This document shows positions 1,000-39,668 of a DNA stretch of 64,000 nucleotides, piece after piece. The DNA is taken from assembly GCF_009730915.1 (NCBI RefSeq), contig NC_052488.1:21942305-22006304 (forward strand). Direction: 5' to 3'. This DNA comes from Dioscorea cayenensis subsp. rotundata (Eukaryota; Streptophyta; Magnoliopsida; Dioscoreales; Dioscoreaceae). How positions within the stretch are numbered: the stretch's first letter is position 1; every line of letters begins with the position of its first letter. The translations under genes were made by a program, and so were the position numbers. The notes under the pieces were generated by a model, which saw only the letters and a list, made by a program, of their open reading frames with translations, was not told where the DNA came from and made no database searches.

Positions 1000-1630
1000 A
1001 AAAAAAAAAAAATTTAATGCGTGCTTAGTTATGTAGGATTTTCAAATAAATTTTATATTATTATTATTACTATTATTTTTATAAAAATGGATAAATTACA
1101 ACTTGAATTGAAACCCTAACATATTTTTTTTTTTATCACTTGTATTGATTCTCTATGTTCCTCCAATTCTCCGTCTATAAACGGACCATGATCTTCGTGT
1201 ATTCTCTAAAGCAATTCAATATATATATATACACATATAATTTCCCATCTCATCCAAATGTTCTTCCAACAAGTACATCTTTGGAGAACAAGGTCCATTG
1301 AAAGCATAACATAAAATCTCAACATGATATATATATATATATATATATAAATATAATTAATTGACAATAAACAACAAGGAAGTTCTAAGCAAATTAAAAG
1401 TACATTCACATATAATTAATAATAAAAGATTGTCTGAATTATTGAAAAGGAAAGCTTCACTCTGAGATCTCAGGGCATATATAAATATATATATAGAGAG
1501 AGAAATTCAATACATCTTATTTAAGCTAGCCCTGGCATATATTAATTTACAGTCTAATTTTCTCTGAAAAATATTTATGGGTTTGATTTCTGCTGATCAA
1601 ATTGCTGCTGCTCTTGCTGCAAGAACATAT

Positions 1631-2042
1631 CTAGTAATTTCGATCTCTGAAGTGCAACAGCGGGTTCAATTCTTCTATATTTTTCTTAATCATGATCTCT
1701 TCCACTGCCAAACCAACACCTACACTTGTTATTAATTTCAAAACTATTTATTAATTTTTTTAATAAACTAATTTAATGATGTGAGGTCTAATCTTGATTT
1801 TCTTAATAAATTTAAGGTCTAGAGTTGTGATTAATTACCTTCCTTGGACCCACGGTTGCTACTGAGAGTGAAGATCTTAGTCTTAAGATCATGATTTTCT
1901 TTTCTCAGTAATTTAATCTGATTTTTAGCGTTCTCAATTCCAATTGGCATAGTATTCACTTGATCCTGTAGCTCAAACAATATTACAATAATGTCAATGA
2001 TGTAAAGATTAGTTTATTTTTCTCTTTTATGCACTTGAGTTG

Positions 2043-2084
<42 letters not shown>

Positions 2085-2389
2085 GTTAGATACATCATGA
2101 TCAAAGCAAGCCAATATAGAAACCCATTATATTTTTCATAATATTTTTTCTTAGTGTCGCAAACAATCATGTTCAAAACTTTAAATATGGAAAAAAAAAA
2201 AAGAAAAAGAAAAAGAAGAAGAAAGAAACATAGCCTCATCCATGGAGGACATATATAATAAAAGAAAAACTAACTGATAGCCAATTTAAATAAGATACAA
2301 CTATCTTTTCATATAATTTATATATTCCATCACTTTATACCGGTCAGGAAAGACAAAAACACAAACTAAAGTAATGTCAACTCTAACAA

Positions 2390-2442
<53 letters not shown>

Positions 2443-2934
2443 TACCGTATAAGATTGAACACCCTGCTCCGCATCCTTCAACCTCTGCTCCGTCTTCATA
2501 CGCGAACGCAAGCTTGATTCCCTGTTGTTCAGCAGCCTGCATTCCCAGTACCCCATGTTAATTTCATGAATCTATAAACACAAACCTTAATATATATATA
2601 TATATATATATATATACACTTAATATTTCAACACGAACACAAACACACACATATGTATGCATGCAGGCATGCATGAGAACCTTCTCAGCTTCTTAGGATC
2701 AAGAGGGTGCTGAGCAATGGTAGGAGGAGGTGGAGGAGGAGGAGGCACAGGCAATCCTTTTCCTTTCTCTTGATTCACTGAACTGCTGCTTGAGTTCTCT
2801 CCCATCTCTTTCCCCATGCTCACCTTCTTCTTGTCATGCTCCCTATTCCATTGTTCATCAAGAAAGAAAAACATCAATAGTTTATATATATGCATGAAAA
2901 AGATGATAAACAAAGAGAAAAGGAAAGCTTACAT
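1631..2934 (-). CDS. Small group E-like bZIP transcription factor, copy A
   Basis: Predicted 151-residue nuclear DNA-binding protein in five exons: 2934-2933 (only the AT of the start codon), 2842-2681, 2536-2446, 1965-1839 and 1704-1631 (stop TAG). The N-terminus is MEHDKKKVSMGKEMGENSSS, then a run of eight prolines and LDPKKLRR. Across the next junction lies the basic region NRESSLRSR, which fits N-x7-R. A coiled coil follows with a-position residues L, V, V, I, I, N and I at seven-residue spacing, including the usual buried Asn (in RKENHDLK). A proline sits in the third heptad (NTMPIGIE), as in Arabidopsis group E bZIP34/bZIP61. The C-terminus differs from copies B and C (ends HFRDRNY). 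All splice sites are GT-AG. Phases agree in every exon, which argues that the gene is intact. Confidence 0.78.
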
Positions 2935-2994
2935 GTCTTGCCGGCTTTAGGCACTCTTGGTTTTCTTGTATGCACTGCTTGTTCTTTGTGTGGG

Positions 2995-3003
2995 TATTTA
3001 TAG
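2995..3003 (-). promoter_or_regulatory. TATA box of bZIP copy A
   Basis: CTATAAATA on the minus strand, about 60 bp upstream of the proposed first splice donor (2932). This implies a first exon of roughly 30 nt. The same element stands at the same place in units B and C. Confidence 0.7.
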
Positions 3004-3429
3004 AGTTGAAAGGCTCTAGTACATTCTACTGTATATGGACACTTGTTCATGTGTTATAGGTTGGGGATGTATGACTTTCTGTAGGTTAGTTTTTAAAACT
3101 ATTAATGTCATTTAATGTGGTTGACAAATATAATTGCTACTTAATAATAGGATTGGGATTATTTACTGGATCATTTATGTGATGCGTTGAATTTCTAGAG
3201 ATCATTTACTTAAGATGGGATTTGTGTGAATTTCAACTGAACTAATCTATGATATTAGTTTAAAAACTTTGTTAATAGTAAGAAGTGAAGTTGCAAGCTT
3301 TTATATAGATGGGTGAAAAAAAAATTGTATCTGGTGTTTATCTTATAATATTGTTTTTTATTTACTGAAGTTAAATTAATTAATTATGTCAATACATAAA
3401 TATAATATATTTATTTGTCTAGGACGCTT

Positions 3430-4200
3430 GTCACCTGTTGTCAAACAAAATTTATTTGTCGTGTTTCTATTTACTCTAGGGAGTGAGTTTGTAAGCATGT
3501 ATTTATCTATCAAGATAAAATATATTAATTTTGTTGTGTGTAAGCGCTAGTGATAAAATAAACATACTTAATTTGTCGTATTCTTTATTTATTCCAATCA
3601 AAATCCTGTAAAACAAAGTTATTTATGAAATAAAATATATTTATTTTGTCGTATCTTTTATTTATTTTACTTAACTTAGAATTTAAAGTTGTGTATATCT
3701 ATAAAACTAAAATATATTAATTTTGTCGTGTTCATCAATAAAACAAAACACACTTAATAATTTGTCGTATCTGTTATTTATTCCAATCAAAATCATATAA
3801 AACCAATTTTATTTATAAAATAAATATATTTGTTTTGTCGTATCTTTTATATATTTGGCTCAACTCAGAATTTAAAGTTGTATATAAATAAAACTAAAAA
3901 TATATTACATTTGTTGTGTTTTTAATTTCCATTATATCTGCTAATTTTTTTTTTTTAGAAAAAAAGCATTTATTTTATGAACTCAACACATGAAGTCGTA
4001 TTGTATCTCTAAAACAAAATATACCCCATATACATACACAGATGTGTTTTCAATTTAATCAATGTAGCTAAGCACATAAATTTGTGGCTATACATACAAC
4101 AAAAAGGTATTTATTTTTCTCATATTTTCTATTTATTAATCTCAGGCCAAAAAATGTATTTTTATAAAATAAAATAAAATTATTTTATCATATTTTTTTA
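3430..4200. repeat. Decayed tandem repeat upstream of bZIP copy A
   Basis: The motif TTTGTCGTRT recurs about seven times between about 3450 and 3915, with spacings near 75, 75 and 40 bp. It forms a roughly 190-bp higher-order unit present twice (the tract ATTCCAATCAAAATC marks each). Weaker copies continue to about 4190. The same array occurs in unit B (about 7360-8110) and unit C (about 11190-11930). It lies 0.4-1.2 kb upstream of each bZIP start. Confidence 0.7.
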
Positions 4201-4735
4201 CCCAACTTAGCATGTAAAGTTGCTCATATCTATGAAATAAAATTTGTTATTATATTTTATATGTACTCAACTCAATTCAACTAAAACAGTGATGTCAAAT
4301 TGACATAACAATAAATGAAATTTTATTTAATTGATGGGTTTTTATATTAAGTAACTAAATAAAATTTCTAAGATTAATTTATCAAAAAAAAAAATTTCTA
4401 AGTTTACTGGTAATACTTGAAAATCCATGTTAATTTTCTACCATAAAAGAATTTCTCAATTTTTTTATACTAGCAAGGTTGTTATATTTTCAAAGTTCTA
4501 TTTCTCACACTAACTTTTAATAATGGAGTTTGAAAAAGACTTTTGTTTATGTCTCTCTTTAAACTACTCTGTTTTTAATGTCTAGTTATTTAATATTAAT
4601 TATTTTATAGTGTGGGATATTGGTAGTTGTTTGTAATTTTTATGTAATTTTTGGGAGTGTTTGTTTATTTTTTAATTTTTTTTTTTTGAAAAATTTTTAA
4701 AATTTTTAATGTGTGCTTAGTTATGTAGGGTTTCC

Positions 4736-4791
4736 CAATAATAATAATAATAATAATAATAATAATTAATATAATAATAATAATAATAATA

Positions 4792-4824
<33 letters not shown>
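4736..4824. repeat. (AAT)n/(ATT)n palindromic microsatellite, unit B
   Basis: A run of AAT repeats is followed directly by a run of ATT repeats, so one strand can fold on itself. It begins about 30 bp inside unit B. Unit C has the matching tract at about 8640-8727. Unit A has only the ATT half, near 1057-1080. Confidence 0.85.
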
Positions 4825-5369
4825 AACTTGATAAACCATAACTTAAATTAAAGCCCTAACATATTATTTTTTTATCACTTGTATGATTCTCTATATACCT
4901 CCACAAATTCTCCATCTATAAATGGACCATGATCTTCGTGTATTCTCTAAAGCAATTCAATATATATATACACACATATAATTTCCCTTCTCATCCAAAT
5001 GTTACTTCCAACAAGTACATCTCTGGAGAACAAGGTCCATTGAAAGCATAACATAAAAACCCAACATGATATATATATCTACATATATATAATTAATTGA
5101 CAGTAAACAACAAGGAAGTTCTAAGCAAATTAAAAGTACATTCACATATAATTAATAATAAAAGATTGTTTGAATTATTGAAAAGAAAAGCTTCTGTCTG
5201 AGATCTCAGGGCATATATATATATATATATATACAGAGAGATATTCAGTACATCTCATTTAAGCTAGCCCTAGCATATATTATATTTGCAGTCTAATTTT
5301 CTTTGGAAAATATTCATGATTTTGATTTCTGCTGATCGAATTGCTGCTGCTCCTGCTGCAAGAACATAT

Positions 5370-6197
5370 CTAGTCATTTAGATCTTTGGAGTGCAACAGC
5401 TGGTTCACTTCTTCTATATTTTTCTTAATCATGACCTCTTCCACTGCCAAACCAACACGTACACAAGTTACTAACTTCAAAACTATTTATTAATTTTTTA
5501 ATAAACTAATTTAATGATGTGAGGTCTAATCTTGATTTTCTTGATAAATTTAAGGTTATAAAAAAGAGGTGTGATTAATTACCTATCTTGGACCCACGGT
5601 TGCTATTGAAAGTGAAGATCTTAGTCTTAAGATCATGGTTTTCTTTTCTTAGTAATTCAATCTGATTTTTAGCATTCTCAATCCCTATTGGCATAGTATT
5701 CACTTGATCCTGCAGCTCAAACAATAATACAATAATGTCACTGATGTAAAGATTAGTTGATTTTTTTCTTTTACGCGCTTGACTTGTTAATATATATAGA
5801 AGATTTTAGATATATCATGATCAAAGAAAACCAACATAGAAACTCATTATATTTTTCATAATTTTTTTTCTAAGTGTCGCAAACAATTAATCATGTTCAA
5901 AACTTCAAATATGGATAAGCATAGCCTCATCCATGGAGGACATATAATAAAAGAAAAACTAACTGATGGCCAATTTAAATAAGATACAACTATAATTCAA
6001 ATACTATATTACTCCAAGTTTAAAAAATAAAATAAAAAAATCCCATATATTGGGAAAGAATAATTCACTGGAGAAACAAATCACAATAATTATCTCTATA
6101 AGATAACTCTATGTTTTCATATAATTTATATATTCCATCACTTTATACCCGTCAAGAAAGACAAAAACACAAACCAAAGTAATGTCAACTCTAACAA

Positions 6198-6236
<39 letters not shown>

Positions 6237-6768
6237 TACCGTATAAGATTGAACACCTTGCTCCGCATCCTTCAACCTCTGCTCCGTCTTCATACGCGAA
6301 CGCAAGCTTGATTCCCTGTTGTTCAGCAGCCTGCATTCCCAGTACCCCATGTTAATTTCATGAATCTATAACACAAACCCTAATATATATATATATATAT
6401 ATACACTTAATATTTCAACACAAACACAAACACACACACATGTACACACACACACACACACACACAAACACACACATATGTATGCATGCAGGCATGCATG
6501 AGAACCTTCTCAGCTTCTTAGGATCAAGAGGGTGCTGAGCAATGGTAGGAGGAGGTGGAGGAGGAGGAGGAGGAGGCATAGGCAATCTTTTTCCTTTCTC
6601 TTGATTCACTGAACAGCTGCTTGAGTTCTCTCCCATCTCTTTCCCCATGCTCACCTTCTTCTTGTCATGCTCCCTATTCCATTGTTCATCAAAAAAGAAA
6701 AAACATCAATAGATTATATATATATGCATGAAAAAGATGATAAACAAAGAGAAAAGGAAAGCTTACAT
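5370..6768 (-). CDS. Small group E-like bZIP transcription factor, copy B
   Basis: Predicted 153 residues in five exons: 6768-6767 (AT of the start codon), 6673-6506, 6330-6240, 5709-5583 and 5443-5370 (stop TAG). Layout is as in copy A: acidic/serine-rich N-terminus, ten-proline run, LDPKKLRR, basic region NRESSLRSR split from the KKLRR tail by an intron, and a coiled coil with proline in the third heptad and Asn in RKENHDLK. The C-terminus is VEEVMIKKNIEEVNQLLHSK followed by DLND. It differs from A and C in exon 2 (SSSCSV, GKRLPMP, two extra prolines). All frames and GT-AG sites hold. The TATA box lies at 6829-6837. Group E bZIPs act in pollen and vascular gene control in Arabidopsis; that role is only a hint here. 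Confidence 0.78.
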
Positions 6769-6828
6769 GTCTTGCCGGCTTTAGGCACTCTTGGTTTTCT
6801 TGTATGCACTGCTTGTTCTTTGTGTGGG

Positions 6829-6837
6829 TATTTATAG
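6829..6837 (-). promoter_or_regulatory. TATA box of bZIP copy B
   Basis: CTATAAATA on the minus strand, the same distance from the first splice donor (6766) as in units A and C. The flanking 130 bp is almost identical to unit A but differs from unit C at several bases. Confidence 0.7.
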
Positions 6838-7148
6838 AGTTGAAAGGCTCTAGTACATTCTACTGTATATGGACACTTGTTCATGTGTTATAGGTTGGGG
6901 ATGTATGACTTTCTGTAGGTTAGTTTTTAAAACTATTAATGTCATTTAATGTGGTTGACAAATATAATTGCTACTTAATAATGGGATTGGGGGTATTCAC
7001 TGGATCATTTATGTGATGCGTTAAATTTCTAGAGATCATTAGCCTAAGATGTTATTTTGTGTGAATTTCAACTGAACGAATCTATGATATTAGTTTAAAA
7101 ACTTTGTTAATAGTAAGAAGTGAAGTTGGAAGCGATGGGTGAACAAAA

Positions 7149-7223
7149 GTTTTTTTTTTTTTGAAAAAAGTGAATAAACTACTAATTTATTAAAAAAAAA
7201 AGAGTCCAGAGAGGTACAATGGA
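7149..7223 (-). mobile_element. Severely truncated LINE 3' tail inserted in unit B
   Basis: A 75-bp segment present only in unit B. It is flanked by an 8-bp direct repeat GAACAAAA (7141-7148 and 7224-7231), which occurs once at the matching site in unit C. It begins with a T run and continues GAAAAAAGTGAATAAACTAC, then A-rich DNA. This resembles the reverse complement of the 3' end of the LINE at 16590-16620 (AAGCGGATAAACCACTTCT). It is best read as a LINE insertion that copied only its tail. Confidence 0.7.
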
Positions 7224-8692
7224 GAACAAAAAAATTGTATCATGTGTTTATTTTAAAATATTGCTTTCTATTTACTGAAGTTAAATTAATTAATTATGTC
7301 AATACACAAATATAATAGATTTATTTGTCTAGGACATTTGTCACCTGTTGTCAAACAAAATTTATTTGTCGTGTTTCTATTTACTCTAGGGACTGAGTTT
7401 GTAAGCATGTATTTATCTATCAAGATAAATATATTAATTTTGTCGTGTTAAGCGCTAGTGATAAAATAAAACATACTTAATTTGTCGTATTCTTTATTTA
7501 TTCCAATCAAAATCATGTAAAACAAAGTTTATTTATGAAATAAAATATATTTATTTTGTCATATCTTTTATTTATTTCACTTAACTTAGAATTTAAAGTT
7601 GTGTATATCTATAAAACTAAAATATATTAATTTTGTCTTGTTCATCAATAAAACAAAACCCACTTAATAACTTGTCGTATCTCTTATTTATTCCAATCAA
7701 AATCATATAAAACCAATTTTATTTATAAAATAAAATATATTTATTTTGTCGTATCTTTTATATATTTTGCTCAACTCAGAATTTAAAGTTTTATATAGAT
7801 AAAACTAAAAATATATTAAATTTGTCGTGTTTTTAATTTCCATTTTATCTACTTTTTTTTTGAGAAAAAAATGCATTTATTTGATGAACTCAACACATGA
7901 AGTCGTATTGTATCTCTATAACAAAATATACCCCATATACATACACAGATGTGTTTTCAATTTAATCAATGTAGCTAAGCACATAAATTTGTAGTTATAC
8001 ATACAACAAAAGGTATTTATTTTTTTTCATATTTTCTATTTATTAATCTCAGGCCAAAAAAATGTATTTTTATAAAATAAAATATAATTATTTTATCATA
8101 TTTGTTTTCCCCAACTTAGCATGTAAAGTTGCTCATATCTATGAAATAAAATTTGTTATTATATTTTATATGTACTCAACTCAATTCAACTAAAACAGCG
8201 AAGTCAAATTGACATTGTGGACTTTCACCCAACAACAAACGGAATTTTATTTAATTGATGGGGTTTTATATTAAGTAACTAAATAAAATTTTTAAGCTTA
8301 ATTTATCAAAAAAAAAAAAATTCTAAGTTTACTGGTAATACTTGAAAATCCATGTTAATTTTCTACCATAAAAGAATTTCTCAATTTTTTTTATACTAGC
8401 AAGGTTGTTATATTTTCAAAGTTCTATTTCTAACACTAACTTTTGATAATGGAGTTTGAAAAAGACTATTTTGTTTTTGTCTCTCTTTAAACTACTCTGT
8501 TTTTAATGTCCAGTTATTTAATATTAATTATTTTATAGTGTGGGATATTGGTGGTTGTTTGTAATTTTAATGTAATTTTTGGGAGTGTTTGTTTATTTCT
8601 TAAAACTATTTAATGTGTGCTTAGTTATGTAGGGTTTCCCAATAATAATAATAATAATAATAATAATAATTAATATAATAATAATAATAATA

Positions 8693-8728
<36 letters not shown>

Positions 8729-9113
8729 AACTTGATAAACCATAACTTAAATTAAAGCCCTAACATATTATTTTTTTATCACTTGTATGATTCTCTATAT
8801 ACCTCCACAAATTCTCCATCTATAAATGGACCATGATCTTCGTGTATTCTCTAAAGCAATTCAATATATATATACACACATATAATTTCCCTTCTCATCC
8901 AAATGTTACTTCCAACAAGTACATCTCTGGAGAACAAGGTCCATTGAAAGCATAACATAAAAACCCAACATGATATATATATCTACATATATATAATTAA
9001 TTGACAGTAAACAACAAGGAAGTTCTAAGCAAATTAAAAGTACATTCACATATAATTAATAATAAAAGATTGTTTGAATTATTGAAAAGAAAAGCTTCTG
9101 TCTGAGATCTCAG

Positions 9114-9149
<36 letters not shown>

Positions 9150-9281
9150 GAGATATTCAGTACATCTCATTTAAGCTAGCCCTAGCATATATTATATTTG
9201 CAGTCTAATTTTCTTTGGAAAATATTCATGATTTTGATTTCTGCTGATCGAATTGCTGCTGCTCCTGCTGCAAGAACATAT

Positions 9282-10672
9282 CTAGTCATTTAGATCTCTG
9301 GAGTGCAACAGCTGGTTCACTTCTTCTATATTTTTCTTAATCATGACCTCTTCCACTGCCAAACCAACACGTACACAAGTTACTAACTTCAAAACTATTT
9401 ATTAATTTTTTAATAAACTAATTTAATGATGTGAGGTCTAATCTTGATTTTCTTGATAAATTTAAGGTTATAAAAAAGAGGTGTGATTAATTACCTATCT
9501 TGGACCCACGGTTGCTATTGAAAGTGAAGATCTTAGTCTTAAGATCATGGTTTTCTTTTCTTAGTAATTCAATCTGATTTTTAGCATTCTCAATCCCTAT
9601 TGGCATAGTATTCACTTGATCCTGCAGCTCAAACAATAATACAATAATGTCACCGATGTAAAAGATTAGTTGATTTTTCTTTTACGGCGCTTGACTTGTT
9701 AATATATATAGAAGATTTTTAGATATATCATGATCAAAGAAAACCAACATAGAAACTCATTATATTTTTTTCATAATCTAAGTGTCGCAAAACAATTAAT
9801 CATGTTCAAAACTTCAAATATGGGATAAGCATAGCCTCATCCATGGAGGACATATAATAAAAGAAAAACTAACTGATGGCCAATTTAAATAAGATACAAC
9901 TATAATTCAAATACTATATTACTCCAAGTTTAAAAAATAAAATAAAAAAATAAAAAAAAATCCCATATATTGGGAAAGAATAATTCACTGGAGAAACAAA
10001 TCACAATAATTATCTCTATAAGATAACTCTATGTTTTCATATAATTTATATATTCCATCACTTTATACCCGTCAAGAAAGATAAAAACACAAACCAAAGT
10101 AATGTCAACTCTAACAAGTATATATATATATATATATATATATGTTTACCGTATAAGATTGAACACCTTGCTCCGCATCCTTCAACCTCTGCTCCGTCTT
10201 CATACGTGAACGCAAGCTTGATTCCCTGTTGTTCAGCAGCCTGCATTCCCAGTACCCCACCTTAATTTCATGAATCTATAAACACAAACCCTAATATATA
10301 TATATATATATATATATACTTAATATTTCAACACAAACACAAACACACACACATGTACACACACACACACACACAAACACACACATATGTATGCATGCAG
10401 GCATGCATGAGAACCTTCTCAGCTTCTTAGGATCAAGAGGGTGCTGAGCAATGGTAGGAGGAGGTGGAGGAGGAGGAGGCACAGGCAATCCTTTTCCTTT
10501 CTCTTGATTCACTGAACTGCTGCTTGAGTTCTCTCCCATCTCTTTCCCCATGCTCACCTTCTTCTTGTCATGCTCCCTATTCCATTGTTCATCAAAAAAG
10601 AAAAACATCAATAGATTATATATATATATGCATGAAAAAGATGATAAACAAAGAGAAAAGGAAAGCTTACAT
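9282..10672 (-). CDS. Small group E-like bZIP transcription factor, copy C
   Basis: Predicted 151 residues in five exons: 10672-10671 (AT of the start codon), 10576-10415, 10240-10150, 9621-9495 and 9355-9282 (stop TAG). The N-terminal exon encodes the same protein as copy A (SSSSSV, GKGLPVP, eight prolines), while exons 4 and 5 match copy B except for one residue (HSRDLND against HSKDLND). The basic region is unchanged, with one silent base difference (CGTTCACGT). The TATA box is at 10733-10741. Copies B and C share CA-repeat tracts in the second intron (10350-10385 in C) that copy A lacks. No break in the frame is visible. Confidence 0.78.
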
Positions 10673-10732
10673 GTCTTGCCGACTTTAGGCACTCTTGGTT
10701 TTCTTGTATGCACTGCTTGTTCTTTGTGTGGG

Positions 10733-10741
10733 TATTTATAG
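10733..10741 (-). promoter_or_regulatory. TATA box of bZIP copy C
   Basis: CTATAAATA on the minus strand, about 60 bp upstream of the first splice donor (10670). Confidence 0.7.
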
Positions 10742-12242
10742 AGTTGTAAGGCTCTAGTACATTCTACTGTATATGGACACTTGTTCATGTGTTATAGGTT
10801 GGGGATGTATGACTTTCTGCATGTTGGTTTTTAGAACTATAAATGTCATTAATGTGGTTGACATAATTGCTACTTAATAATGGGATTGGGGGTATTAACT
10901 CTTGTGGGGGATCATTTATGTGTTGCATTCAATTTCTAGAGATCATTAGCCTAAGAAGGGATTTGTGTGAATTTCAACTGAACTAATCTATGATATTAGT
11001 TAAAAAACTTTGTTAATAGTAAGAAGTGAAGTTGGAAGCGTATATAGATGGGTGAACAAAAAGTTGTATTTGGTGTTTATCTTGTAATATTGTTTTCTAT
11101 TTACTGAAGTTAAATTAATTAATTATGTCAATACACAAATATAATAGATTTATTTGTCTAGGACGTTTACCACCTGTTGTCAAACAAAATTTATTTGTCG
11201 TGTTTCTATTTACTCTAGGGACTGAGTTTGTAAGCATGTATTTATCTATCAAGATAAAATATATTAATTTTGTTGTGTTAAACGCTAGTGGTAAAATAAA
11301 ACATACTTAATTTGTCGCATTCTTTATTTATTCCAATCAAAATCTTGTAAAATAAAGTTTATTTATGAAATAAGATATATTTATTTTGTCGTATCTTTTA
11401 TTTATTTTACTTAACTTAGAATTTAAAGTTGTGTATATCTATAAAACTAAAATATATTAATTTTGTCGTGTTCATCAATAAAACAAAACACACTTAATAA
11501 TTTGTCGTATCTCTTATTTATTCCAATCAAAATCATATAAAACAAATTTTATTTATAAAATAAAATATATTTATTTTGTCGTATCTTTTATATGTTTTGC
11601 TCAACTCAGAATTTAAAGTTGTATATAAATAAAACTAAAAATATATTAAATTTGTCATGTTTTTAATTTCCATTTTATCTACTAAAATTTGTTTTTAGAA
11701 AAAAAATGCATTTATTTTATGAACTCAACACATGAAGTCGTATTGTATCTATAAAACAAAATATACCCCATATACATACACATGGATGTGTTTTCAATTT
11801 GACCAATGTAGCTAAGCACATAAATTTGTGGTTATATGTACAACAAAAGGTATTTATTTTTCATATTTTCTATCTCAGGCCAAAAAAATGTATTTTTATA
11901 AAATGAAATATAATTATTTTATCTTTTTTTTTACCCAACTTGGCATGTAAAGTTGCTCATATCTATGAAATATAGTTTGTTATTATATTTTATATGTACT
12001 CAATTCAATTAACTAAAACAACGAAGCAAAATTGGCATTATGGACTTTCACCCAACAATAAATGGAATTTTATTTAATTTTATTGTGTAAATTTATTAAC
12101 CCCCATAATTTAAATCAAAATGTGTATATGTATATTTATACCAATTAGCTTACCACCAAAAGTTTAAAAAGAGCGTAATGTAATAGAGCATATCAATAAA
12201 AGATATATACTAGATTTCATGGTATTAGGCTATTAGTTTACA

Positions 12243-16623: not shown

Positions 16624-16687
16624 CTCCAGAGGAGAGAAACTCCACAAAGGACCCACCATGTAATTTTGTGAGTTGAAAGGTTTAAAT

Positions 16688-17311
16688 CATAGTTATCAAA
16701 CCCGGACCGGCCCGGCGGTCGGACCGGTTGACCCGGTGACCCGGTGCTTCAACCGGTCCGGGTCTTTAATTAGACCGGTTATGCAATCAACCCGTTTTGA
16801 CCCGCATTGACCCGCTTTGACCCGGTGGTTAGACCGGTTGACCCAGCGGTCGGACCGATTGACCCGGCGGTCGAACCAGTTGACCCGGCGGTCAGACCAA
16901 TTGACCCGGTTTGATTTGTAATTTCAATTTTGAACTTTGGTTATATATTGGATTGAGTTTGGTTTGATACTTTGATGATAAATTTAAACTTTTATTGTGA
17001 ATTAGTATTGTTATGTATTGATATTATGTGAAGTTTGAGCTTTTTTCCTCTTTTCTACTACTTCCAAATCAAAGATTAGCAATTGTTTTGTATTTTTTTC
17101 CATCAAATTATTTATTTGATAACTAATAATTCATGGATATTATTATGATATATCATTATATAATTAAAAACTAATTTATAATTTTAAAATTAATATTTTA
17201 AAATATTTTTATTAACCCAGTATTAACCCAAATGACCCGACGGTTGAACCAATTGACCCGTGACCCAGAGCCTTGACCGGGTCAATGCCCGGGCCGGGTC
17301 TGATAACTATG
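16688..17311. mobile_element. hAT-type MITE with 8-bp target duplication
   Basis: The 624-bp element has terminal inverted repeats: CATAGTTATCAAACCCGGAC on the left and, on the right, the reverse complement beginning CATAGTTATCAGACCCGGCC. An exact 8-bp duplication GTTTAAAT flanks it (16680-16687 and 17312-17319), the length made by hAT transposases. The left 200 bp is built of short repeats of the type GACCCGGCGGTCGGACCGGT. The centre is AT-rich and has no coding potential. It sits just downstream of the LINE. Confidence 0.88.
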
Positions 17312-17319
17312 GTTTAAAT

Positions 17320-25966: not shown

Positions 25967-26016
<50 letters not shown>

Positions 26017-30815: not shown

Positions 30816-31256
30816 ATGTCACCAAGAAAGGGAGTTGGAAAGAGATCAGGTGGAGGAAGAACCATCAAGCTCTCAACTGAACCTCAAAGCATTGCAGCTA
30901 GGCAAAGAAGACACAGGATAAGTGATAGATTCAAGGTCCTCAAGAGCCTTGTGCCAGGTGGAAACAAGATGGACACTGTCTCCATGCTTGAAGAAGCCAT
31001 TCATTATGTTAAGTTCCTCAAAACCCAGATCTCTCTTCATCAAGCAGCTCTCATGCCTCCTCCTCCTCCTTTTCCCTTCTCTTCCAGTGATATTACTATG
31101 AATGCTAGCCATCTCTCCACTACCATTGATGCATCACCATTACCACCATCTTCTTCTTCATCATCATCATCATCTTCTTCACTTCTCCCCTATCCTCCAT
31201 TCATCTCATTCAAAGGAGAAGCAGAGATGCTGTCTTATGTTGGTCTCAACTACTAA
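30816..31256 (+). CDS. LAX PANICLE1-like bHLH transcription factor
   Basis: Intronless, 146 residues, nuclear. The bHLH domain spans about residues 24-75: [60 protein letters not shown]. This is close to rice LAX1 and maize barren stalk1, regulators of axillary meristem start, and also related to HEC and IND. As in that subfamily, the histidine and glutamate that usually contact the E-box are replaced (Q and A). The C-terminal half is low-complexity: a Pro run, a run of 11 serines, and then [16 protein letters not shown] compact single-exon gene of this size fits LAX1-like genes. Assignment to LAX1 rather than another member of the clade is inferred. Confidence 0.85.
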
Positions 31257-38398: not shown

Positions 38399-39668
38399 CT
38401 AAAATGATATGTTTGTATATTGTGACTGCATTAGCCTTTGCCTTTTTCCAGACACAACATCAGATGAAGCAATTCTAGCTAAGACTTCTTTAATTGAATC
38501 CTTGAGAGAATTCATACACACATTCCCCTGACTATCCTTCTTGCACAATACGAAAACATTTCGTACTCGGCCTCCTAACGATATCATGTCGGCCTTTACT
38601 GCTCTCACTCTCAATCCCTGGAATGCTTGCATTAAATCTGCGAGCAAATCCGGTCTGTCATCGCAACATATTGAAGCTTTAATGTACATTATCGGTTTGT
38701 CGTCACCTTTGGATTCTACAATCACTTCATTTGTTTCAGAAGGAATTGTTTGCAATTTGGCAATATCCATTGCTTTTCTCTTCAGATCTTTCACTTGTTC
38801 AATCACTTTACCAAGCAGAGATGCTTTGTCCATCTGTATCAATTAATCCAATCAAAAACAGTAAGTTGATCATGAACCAAATCTGCATCTGATTATTCAT
38901 CCTACTCTTTAAGAATTTTTTTTTTTTCACTTTTTAGCATTCAAAGTGGAGGAACATTGAGAAATCTGAATCATAAATCACAAAACACTGAAAACCAACA
39001 CATGTAGTAGTAGTAGTAGTAGTAATTAATGCATGTTGGCCACTTGTTAATAATATCAATCTCTGTTCACTAATTAATTTAATTAAACAATGAATTATAA
39101 AAAAAACTACTGTTGATGATGATGATGATTATTATCATTATTATTCTTGTTTTTAATTAATTAATCATACTGTTTGCATTTTGGGATGTTCTTTCTGATC
39201 CAGAATTGACAAATCACAACAAATGTAATGCAACTTGACAAGTTGCAATTTTGCAACAGTAAAACAAATACATCCAACTCTCAATCTGTTACTGAATAAC
39301 TAATCAAACAAAGAAAGAAAGAAAAAAAACTGAGATTTTGAGACCAAGAATAGAAAACAAAAGTGTGAAAAGATGAAAGAAAAGACCTTGTTAGAATCAG
39401 GAATCATGCGGCGAAGAGTAGAGAGACGAGCATTGATCCTTTCACGCCTTCTCTTCTCAGCCTGACTATGAATCCTCAAAGCACTAGCAGTTCCATCCTC
39501 CTCTTCATAGACCTCTTCAAAGCAAGGATGAAGAGAAGAACCATGGGGATGAACAAGAGAAGGTAAACCACTAGTAGTACTAGTAGTAGTAAAGCCATCA
39601 TCATCATCTGGTGGCATCATCATCATCCCAAAACTAGCAAACAAGCACTTGCTAGTCATAAAAGTCAT
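38399..39668 (-). CDS. AIG1/bHLH30-like bHLH transcription factor with ACT-like domain
   Basis: Two exons, 39668-39387 and 38833-38399, give 238 residues. The start could be either of two near Mets (MTFMTSK). The bHLH domain is ALRIHSQAEKRRRERINARL, STLRRMIPDSNK, then across the intron MDKASLLGKVIEQVKDLKRK. It carries the H-E-R E-box contact residues. The C-terminal part (IKASICCDDRPDLLADLMQA, LRVRAVKADMISLGGRVRNV) folds like an ACT domain, as in the bHLH30/32/106/107 (AIG1) group. The intron between helix 1/loop and helix 2 is characteristic of that group. An Asp run and a Met run lie in the N-terminus. Function beyond DNA binding is inferred. Confidence 0.88.

Follow-up and report, generated by a model that had tools for sequence, protein, structure and literature searches.

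Introduction

Tandem gene arrays with gene conversion among their members are well known in plants. In Arabidopsis and rice, functions in transcription and in DNA or RNA binding are under-represented among such arrays, according to a published account (PMC7565063). Among plant bZIP proteins, those of group E are described in a paper on bZIP29 as being kept from homodimerising by a third-heptad proline, and as pairing with group I members, whose Lys at position −10 they lack (PMC5066499). Pollen defects of atbzip34 and the pairing of AtbZIP34 with AtbZIP18 are mentioned in another article (PMC5732959).

Here we describe three adjacent copies of a small bZIP-like gene in a 64 kb stretch of DNA (hereafter, the window; GC content 35.6%). 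The locus resembles plant tandemly arrayed genes under concerted evolution in its abutting head-to-tail units and patchwork identity, whereas it differs from typical plant tandem arrays in that the arrayed gene encodes a DNA-binding regulator. A literature search made without the species name listed no report on this array, which may nonetheless have been described elsewhere. The reading that we favor, with a probability of roughly 70%, is that a small plant bZIP gene resembling bZIP34/61 (group E) is present in three complete copies, which arose by tandem duplication and were later homogenised in patches by conversion or exchange.

Results

The three-unit tandem array is real. Comparison of the window with itself gave three direct-repeat units spaced by ~3.72–3.93 kb, with both coding and flanking DNA homologous between neighbors. 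A junction string, TTAATG(C/T)GTGCTTAGTTATGTAGG, recurs at about 1014, 4706, and 8610, and was used to set the limits (all approximate) of unit A on the left (1013..4704), unit B in the middle (4705..8608), and unit C on the right (8609..12080). The units abut without a spacer, and unit C lacks the final ~350–370 bp, i.e., the distal upstream end that is present in A and B. The genes of all three units are on the minus strand, which corrects the preliminary description.

A model with five coding exons was built manually for each copy, using GT/AG splice signals. On the minus strand they are located at 2933–2934, 2681–2842, 2446–2536, 1839–1965, and 1631–1704 in unit A (151 aa), at 6767–6768, 6506–6673, 6240–6330, 5583–5709, and 5370–5443 in unit B (153 aa, with two extra Pro codons), and at 10671–10672, 10415–10576, 10150–10240, 9495–9621, and 9282–9355 in unit C (151 aa). 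The coding exons that follow the split start are thus 162 (168 in B), 91, 127, and 74 nt long. The modelled frames are open in all three copies, the GT donors and one common acceptor per intron are kept throughout, and the 6-base in-frame indel of B is the only coding indel.

A TATA box, TATAAATA, is found on the minus strand of each unit (2995..3002 in A, 6829–6836 in B, and 10733–10740 in C), beginning 68 bp ahead of the split ATG in all three, with no ATG between the box and the start codon. From the box to the unit edge there are 1.3–1.8 kb of upstream DNA. Intron 1 splits the start codon (AT|G) in all copies. If this intron were retained, the transcript would read AUGUAAG, that is, AUG followed by UAA, which is a predicted start-stop element in each of the three copies (2934–2929, 6768–6763, and 10672–10667, minus strand).

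At the start of exon 5 (for B, the 3' end of intron 4 at 5444..5463, minus strand) two acceptors were considered. The upstream candidate reads TGTAG in A and TGTAC in B and C, and the other (GGCAG|TGG), 15 nt further on, is common to all copies, preserves the frame, and was used in the model. Because B and C have no AG at the upstream site, it was rejected as a general model and is kept as an option for A only. The preliminary description had proposed a head-to-tail triplication in which each unit holds a complete five-exon bZIP gene with its own TATA box and more than 1 kb of upstream DNA, and all of this agrees with the results above, the bZIP assignment (see below) included. Its four open splice junctions exist in all copies when exon 5 begins from TTTGGCAG|TGG, and are lost with the upstream acceptor, where B and C have AC.

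To the left of the array (235–724) is a fragment of an ACT-domain (ACR-like) gene (PF01842, 31.3 bits; cut-off 27), a second stretch of which runs to a stop and has no Pfam match. The right flank (12.4–16.6 kb) consists of LINE remnants whose plus-strand frames contain 63, 50, and 89 stops. Two of the five stop-free LINE pieces had a sub-threshold Pfam match (RVT_1, 27.0 bits against a cut-off of 29.6; zf-RVT, 18.9 against 27.5), the other three had none, and neither of two LINE ORFs searched separately had a match at E 0.001. Both flanks are debris, as had been suggested. Right after the LINE remnant lies an element of ~640 bp (16681–17318) with 30-nt terminal inverted repeats that are 90% complementary (TTTAAATCATAGTTATCA...); it is filled with GACCCGGT-type repeats and looks like a non-autonomous DNA transposon.

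Further to the right, Pfam matches in the window included an ammonium transporter, a TPP-enzyme, bHLH, PEBP, and clathrin, which together with the GC content point to a plant genome. No Rfam match was obtained in the window at gathering thresholds. The bHLH matches at 39300–39668 (minus strand) and 30816–31256 (plus strand) were above the Pfam cut-off, and a plant bHLH ACT-like domain at 38399–38842 was sub-threshold (25.4 vs 27.6 bits), so that the 64 kb hold several regulator genes. A tblastn search of the window detected no other bZIP-like sequence, the matches outside the array (near 32 kb and 42 kb) having E-values of 0.038 or worse.

A bZIP model ranked first in Pfam for each of the three copies, and the curated cut-off was passed by one of them, copy A (PF07716, 28.1 bits with a cut-off of 22.3; PF00170, 19.8 bits with a cut-off of 27.6). 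Copies B and C scored 20.7 bits with PF00170 and 17.5 bits with PF07716 (same cut-offs). Other coiled-coil-like families scored close behind, with E-values from about 0.003, and no bZIP was among the 31 matches of a phmmer search of the C protein against solved structures (best E 0.11). Stronger evidence for a bZIP than the weak Pfam scores is the canonical register. An N-x7-R basic region (NRESSLRSR) is followed in fixed register by a leucine-zipper-like repeat which, counted from the invariant Arg of this motif, has L V V I I N I at the a positions and A Y M A L L L/F at the d positions. Of the 14 a/d positions, 11 are hydrophobic, and they account for all but three of the 14 large hydrophobic residues in this 49-residue stretch (copies A and C; permutation p 5e-5 for the fixed register and 2e-4 when any of the seven registers is allowed). 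Ala takes the place of Leu at the canonical first d position (R+10).

The marks of group E are present as well. A Pro is found at R+25, directly after the third d position, and Arg instead of Lys is found at −10 in all three copies, taking this position to be the Arg of N-x7-R. The protein shares N-x7-R, the Arg at −10, and the third-heptad proline with group E (AtbZIP34 and AtbZIP61) and with the related unclassified AT1G58110 subfamily, and its zipper residues are presumably placed similarly to those of AtbZIP34. It differs from bZIP34/61, which are about twice as long, in its short length (151–153 aa), its poly-Pro N-terminus, its weak Pfam score, and its unusual basic region (NRESSLRSRM).

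Comparison of the copies bears on whether the proteins are under selection. Overall, A and C differ with a dN of 0.031 and a dS of 0.080, and their codon changes are unevenly distributed, i.e., 2 silent and 0 replacement in codons 1–84, 5 silent and 4 replacement in exon 4, and 0 silent and 6 replacement in exon 5, so that 15 of the 17 codon differences come after codon 84. Exons 4–5 diverge like nearby non-coding DNA (16/201 vs 40/636, p 0.42; the 636 columns cover B 4860–5709 only, leaving out the palindrome stretch described below), and their dN/dS of ~0.5 is indistinct from neutral (p 0.23). Open frames are therefore weak evidence of function, and neutral evolution would often leave exons 4–5 free of stops (P of a stop 0.44).

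These data could also be explained by a decaying array, in which the parent was functional and the copies evolve under little or no selection, as pseudogenes in the making that are still open owing to youth and homogenisation. The substitution density of exons 4–5, the all-replacement changes of exon 5 (not below neutral; P of at least this number 0.14), the absence from B and C of the candidate acceptor AG of A, and the weak Pfam scores are all in line with decay. In the zipper-encoding exon 4, however, neutrality predicts 7.3 replacements and 4 are seen (p 0.02), compared with p 0.057 for the whole frame; several segments were tried and these p values are uncorrected. Nor has any frame-shifting indel occurred in 456 coding bases, where ~3.5 would be expected by our arithmetic if indels were as frequent as in non-coding DNA between A and C (21 non-simple events in 2766 bases), and the kept splice sites and the in-frame nature of the sole coding indel likewise speak against decay. 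The missing frameshifts mildly favor constraint, although part of the gene has been homogenised. Judged from the sequence, constraint on the proteins is weakly supported and the array genes are likely to have a function, and we consider decay of the whole array fairly unlikely.

The divergence between copies is mosaic. In the 3' half, A differs from B and C by 6–8.5%, and in the upstream DNA all pairs differ by ~5%. At gap-clear sites, the differences for A/B, A/C, and B/C were 53, 52, and 1 in the 3' flank plus exon 5 (624 sites), 7, 7, and 0 in intron 4 (121 sites), 10, 10, and 0 in exon 4 (127 sites), and 37, 46, and 44 in the mid-upstream DNA (831 sites). Exons 2–3 with their introns (A 2413–3012) showed 8 mismatches for A/B and 10 for A/C in 600 bp. 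In the core-promoter bin, A and B were identical in 150/150 columns, and A/C and B/C each in 139/145. A is the odd copy at 48 consecutive informative sites of the 216 in gap-clear columns, which include slipped intron 3 sites (permutation p 5e-5), and the best breakpoint is at B 5741–5742 (Fisher p 1e-24, uncorrected for scanning).

An apparent cluster of B/C mismatches in intron 3 (18/233 columns, near 5742–5773) is mostly alignment slippage; the pairwise alignment over 5730–5929 has 1 mismatch and 8 gaps. Aligned pairwise in the repeat register, B and C differ at 3 of 1400 bp over 4730–6129, 8 of 600 over 6130–6729, and 16 of 400 over 6730–7129. The B/C tract is thus near-identical in point sites at 4705..6155 (edges approximate; from ~8609 in C), but the identity is uneven, being interrupted by 10 gap events (8 within 5730–5929). 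Later gene conversion or exchange would fit this tract best, and the array seems to predate by far at least one B/C transfer, of ~1.4 kb. An earlier round of homogenisation may have affected the 5' gene body. The array appears older and patchily homogenised, because its copies are several per cent diverged outside the B/C 3' half and the 5' gene body; these are three sequences compared without an outgroup, which do not fix the order of events.

The triplication had been called recent, which holds for the B/C 3' half and fails elsewhere, the 5' gene body being more similar than the rest. A uniform recent triplication was rejected on the B/C divergence of 0.2% in one part and 4–5% in others. At a rate in frequent use (6.5e-9 per site per year), which was not derived for this species, 8% would correspond to about 6 million years and 0.2% to about 0.15 million.

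If two diverged units had undergone one unequal crossover, the middle copy would be a hybrid with the left half of the right unit and the right half of the left unit. B does match C in its 3' half and is closer to A around the core promoter, as such a hybrid should be. This event also predicts that the right end of A resembles that of B as closely as the left end of B resembles that of C. Instead, immediately to the left of the junction at ~4730, A and B differ at 53 of 1400 bp, against 3 for B and C over a similar length (~1400 bp), which disfavors the single crossover unless upstream DNA mutates far faster, and we regard it as quite unlikely.

Several small elements distinguish the units. 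An AT-only palindrome, (AAT)n(ATT)n, lies near the left edge of B (4737..4823, by the A/B junction) and of C (8641–8727), and does not occur in this form in A. Folding of the B palindrome (4725–4835) gave −23.8 kcal/mol, far better than shuffles (z −6.05). Copy B alone has a 75-bp insert (7149..7223) that by eye resembles a LINE 3' tail (minus strand); it is flanked by GAACAAAA repeats at 7141–7148 and 7224–7231, and the TATA box follows ~310 bp downstream. Within intron 3, B (about 5992–6111) and C (about 9899–10030) have a stretch that is absent from A, leaving a gap of 119 relative to B and 129 relative to C; it may reflect an insertion or a deletion. The (TA)n run of intron 3 is matched by a pure (TA)n run at 25969–26013, between two coding ORFs within the ammonium-transporter gene.

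An assembly artefact, i.e., extra units from misjoined haplotypes or collapsed repeats as invited by the AT-rich microsatellites, is very improbable given that every unit pair differs by point changes and indels and that B has a private insert and private Pro codons and C a private truncation.

Discussion

Tandem duplication followed by patchwise homogenisation is thus our preferred reading. The array would have originated by tandem duplication, probably through unequal exchange, and later gene conversion or further exchange would have homogenised it in patches, most recently over the 3' half of B and C. The conversion tract may start next to the unit junction, at the AT palindrome, a candidate break site. 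Each copy would be transcribed from its own near-identical core promoter, and a higher dosage of the bZIP, as proposed in the preliminary description, might be the outcome. Because of the zipper proline, the proteins would homodimerise poorly and, by analogy with group E, may form heterodimers with group I bZIPs. The zipper half of A differs from that of B and C, a difference that could make A bind its partners slightly more or less strongly than B/C.

A more specific scheme, which we hold to be highly doubtful, is that the array supplies several doses of a very small bZIP, limited to heterodimers and atypical in its basic region, which would titrate group I bZIPs as a dominant-negative-like partner, its 5' half being kept uniform by conversion and the zipper of A drifting in partner preference.

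As a gene duplication the array is of a common type, with some instructive detail. It provides a compact natural case of a tandem transcription-factor array whose copies are of different age by segment, and cautions that duplicates should not be dated by a single segment, nor open frames taken as proof of function. If the genes are expressed, the zipper difference between A and B/C would offer a ready test of dosage versus divergence in a bZIP that is probably poor at homodimerising.
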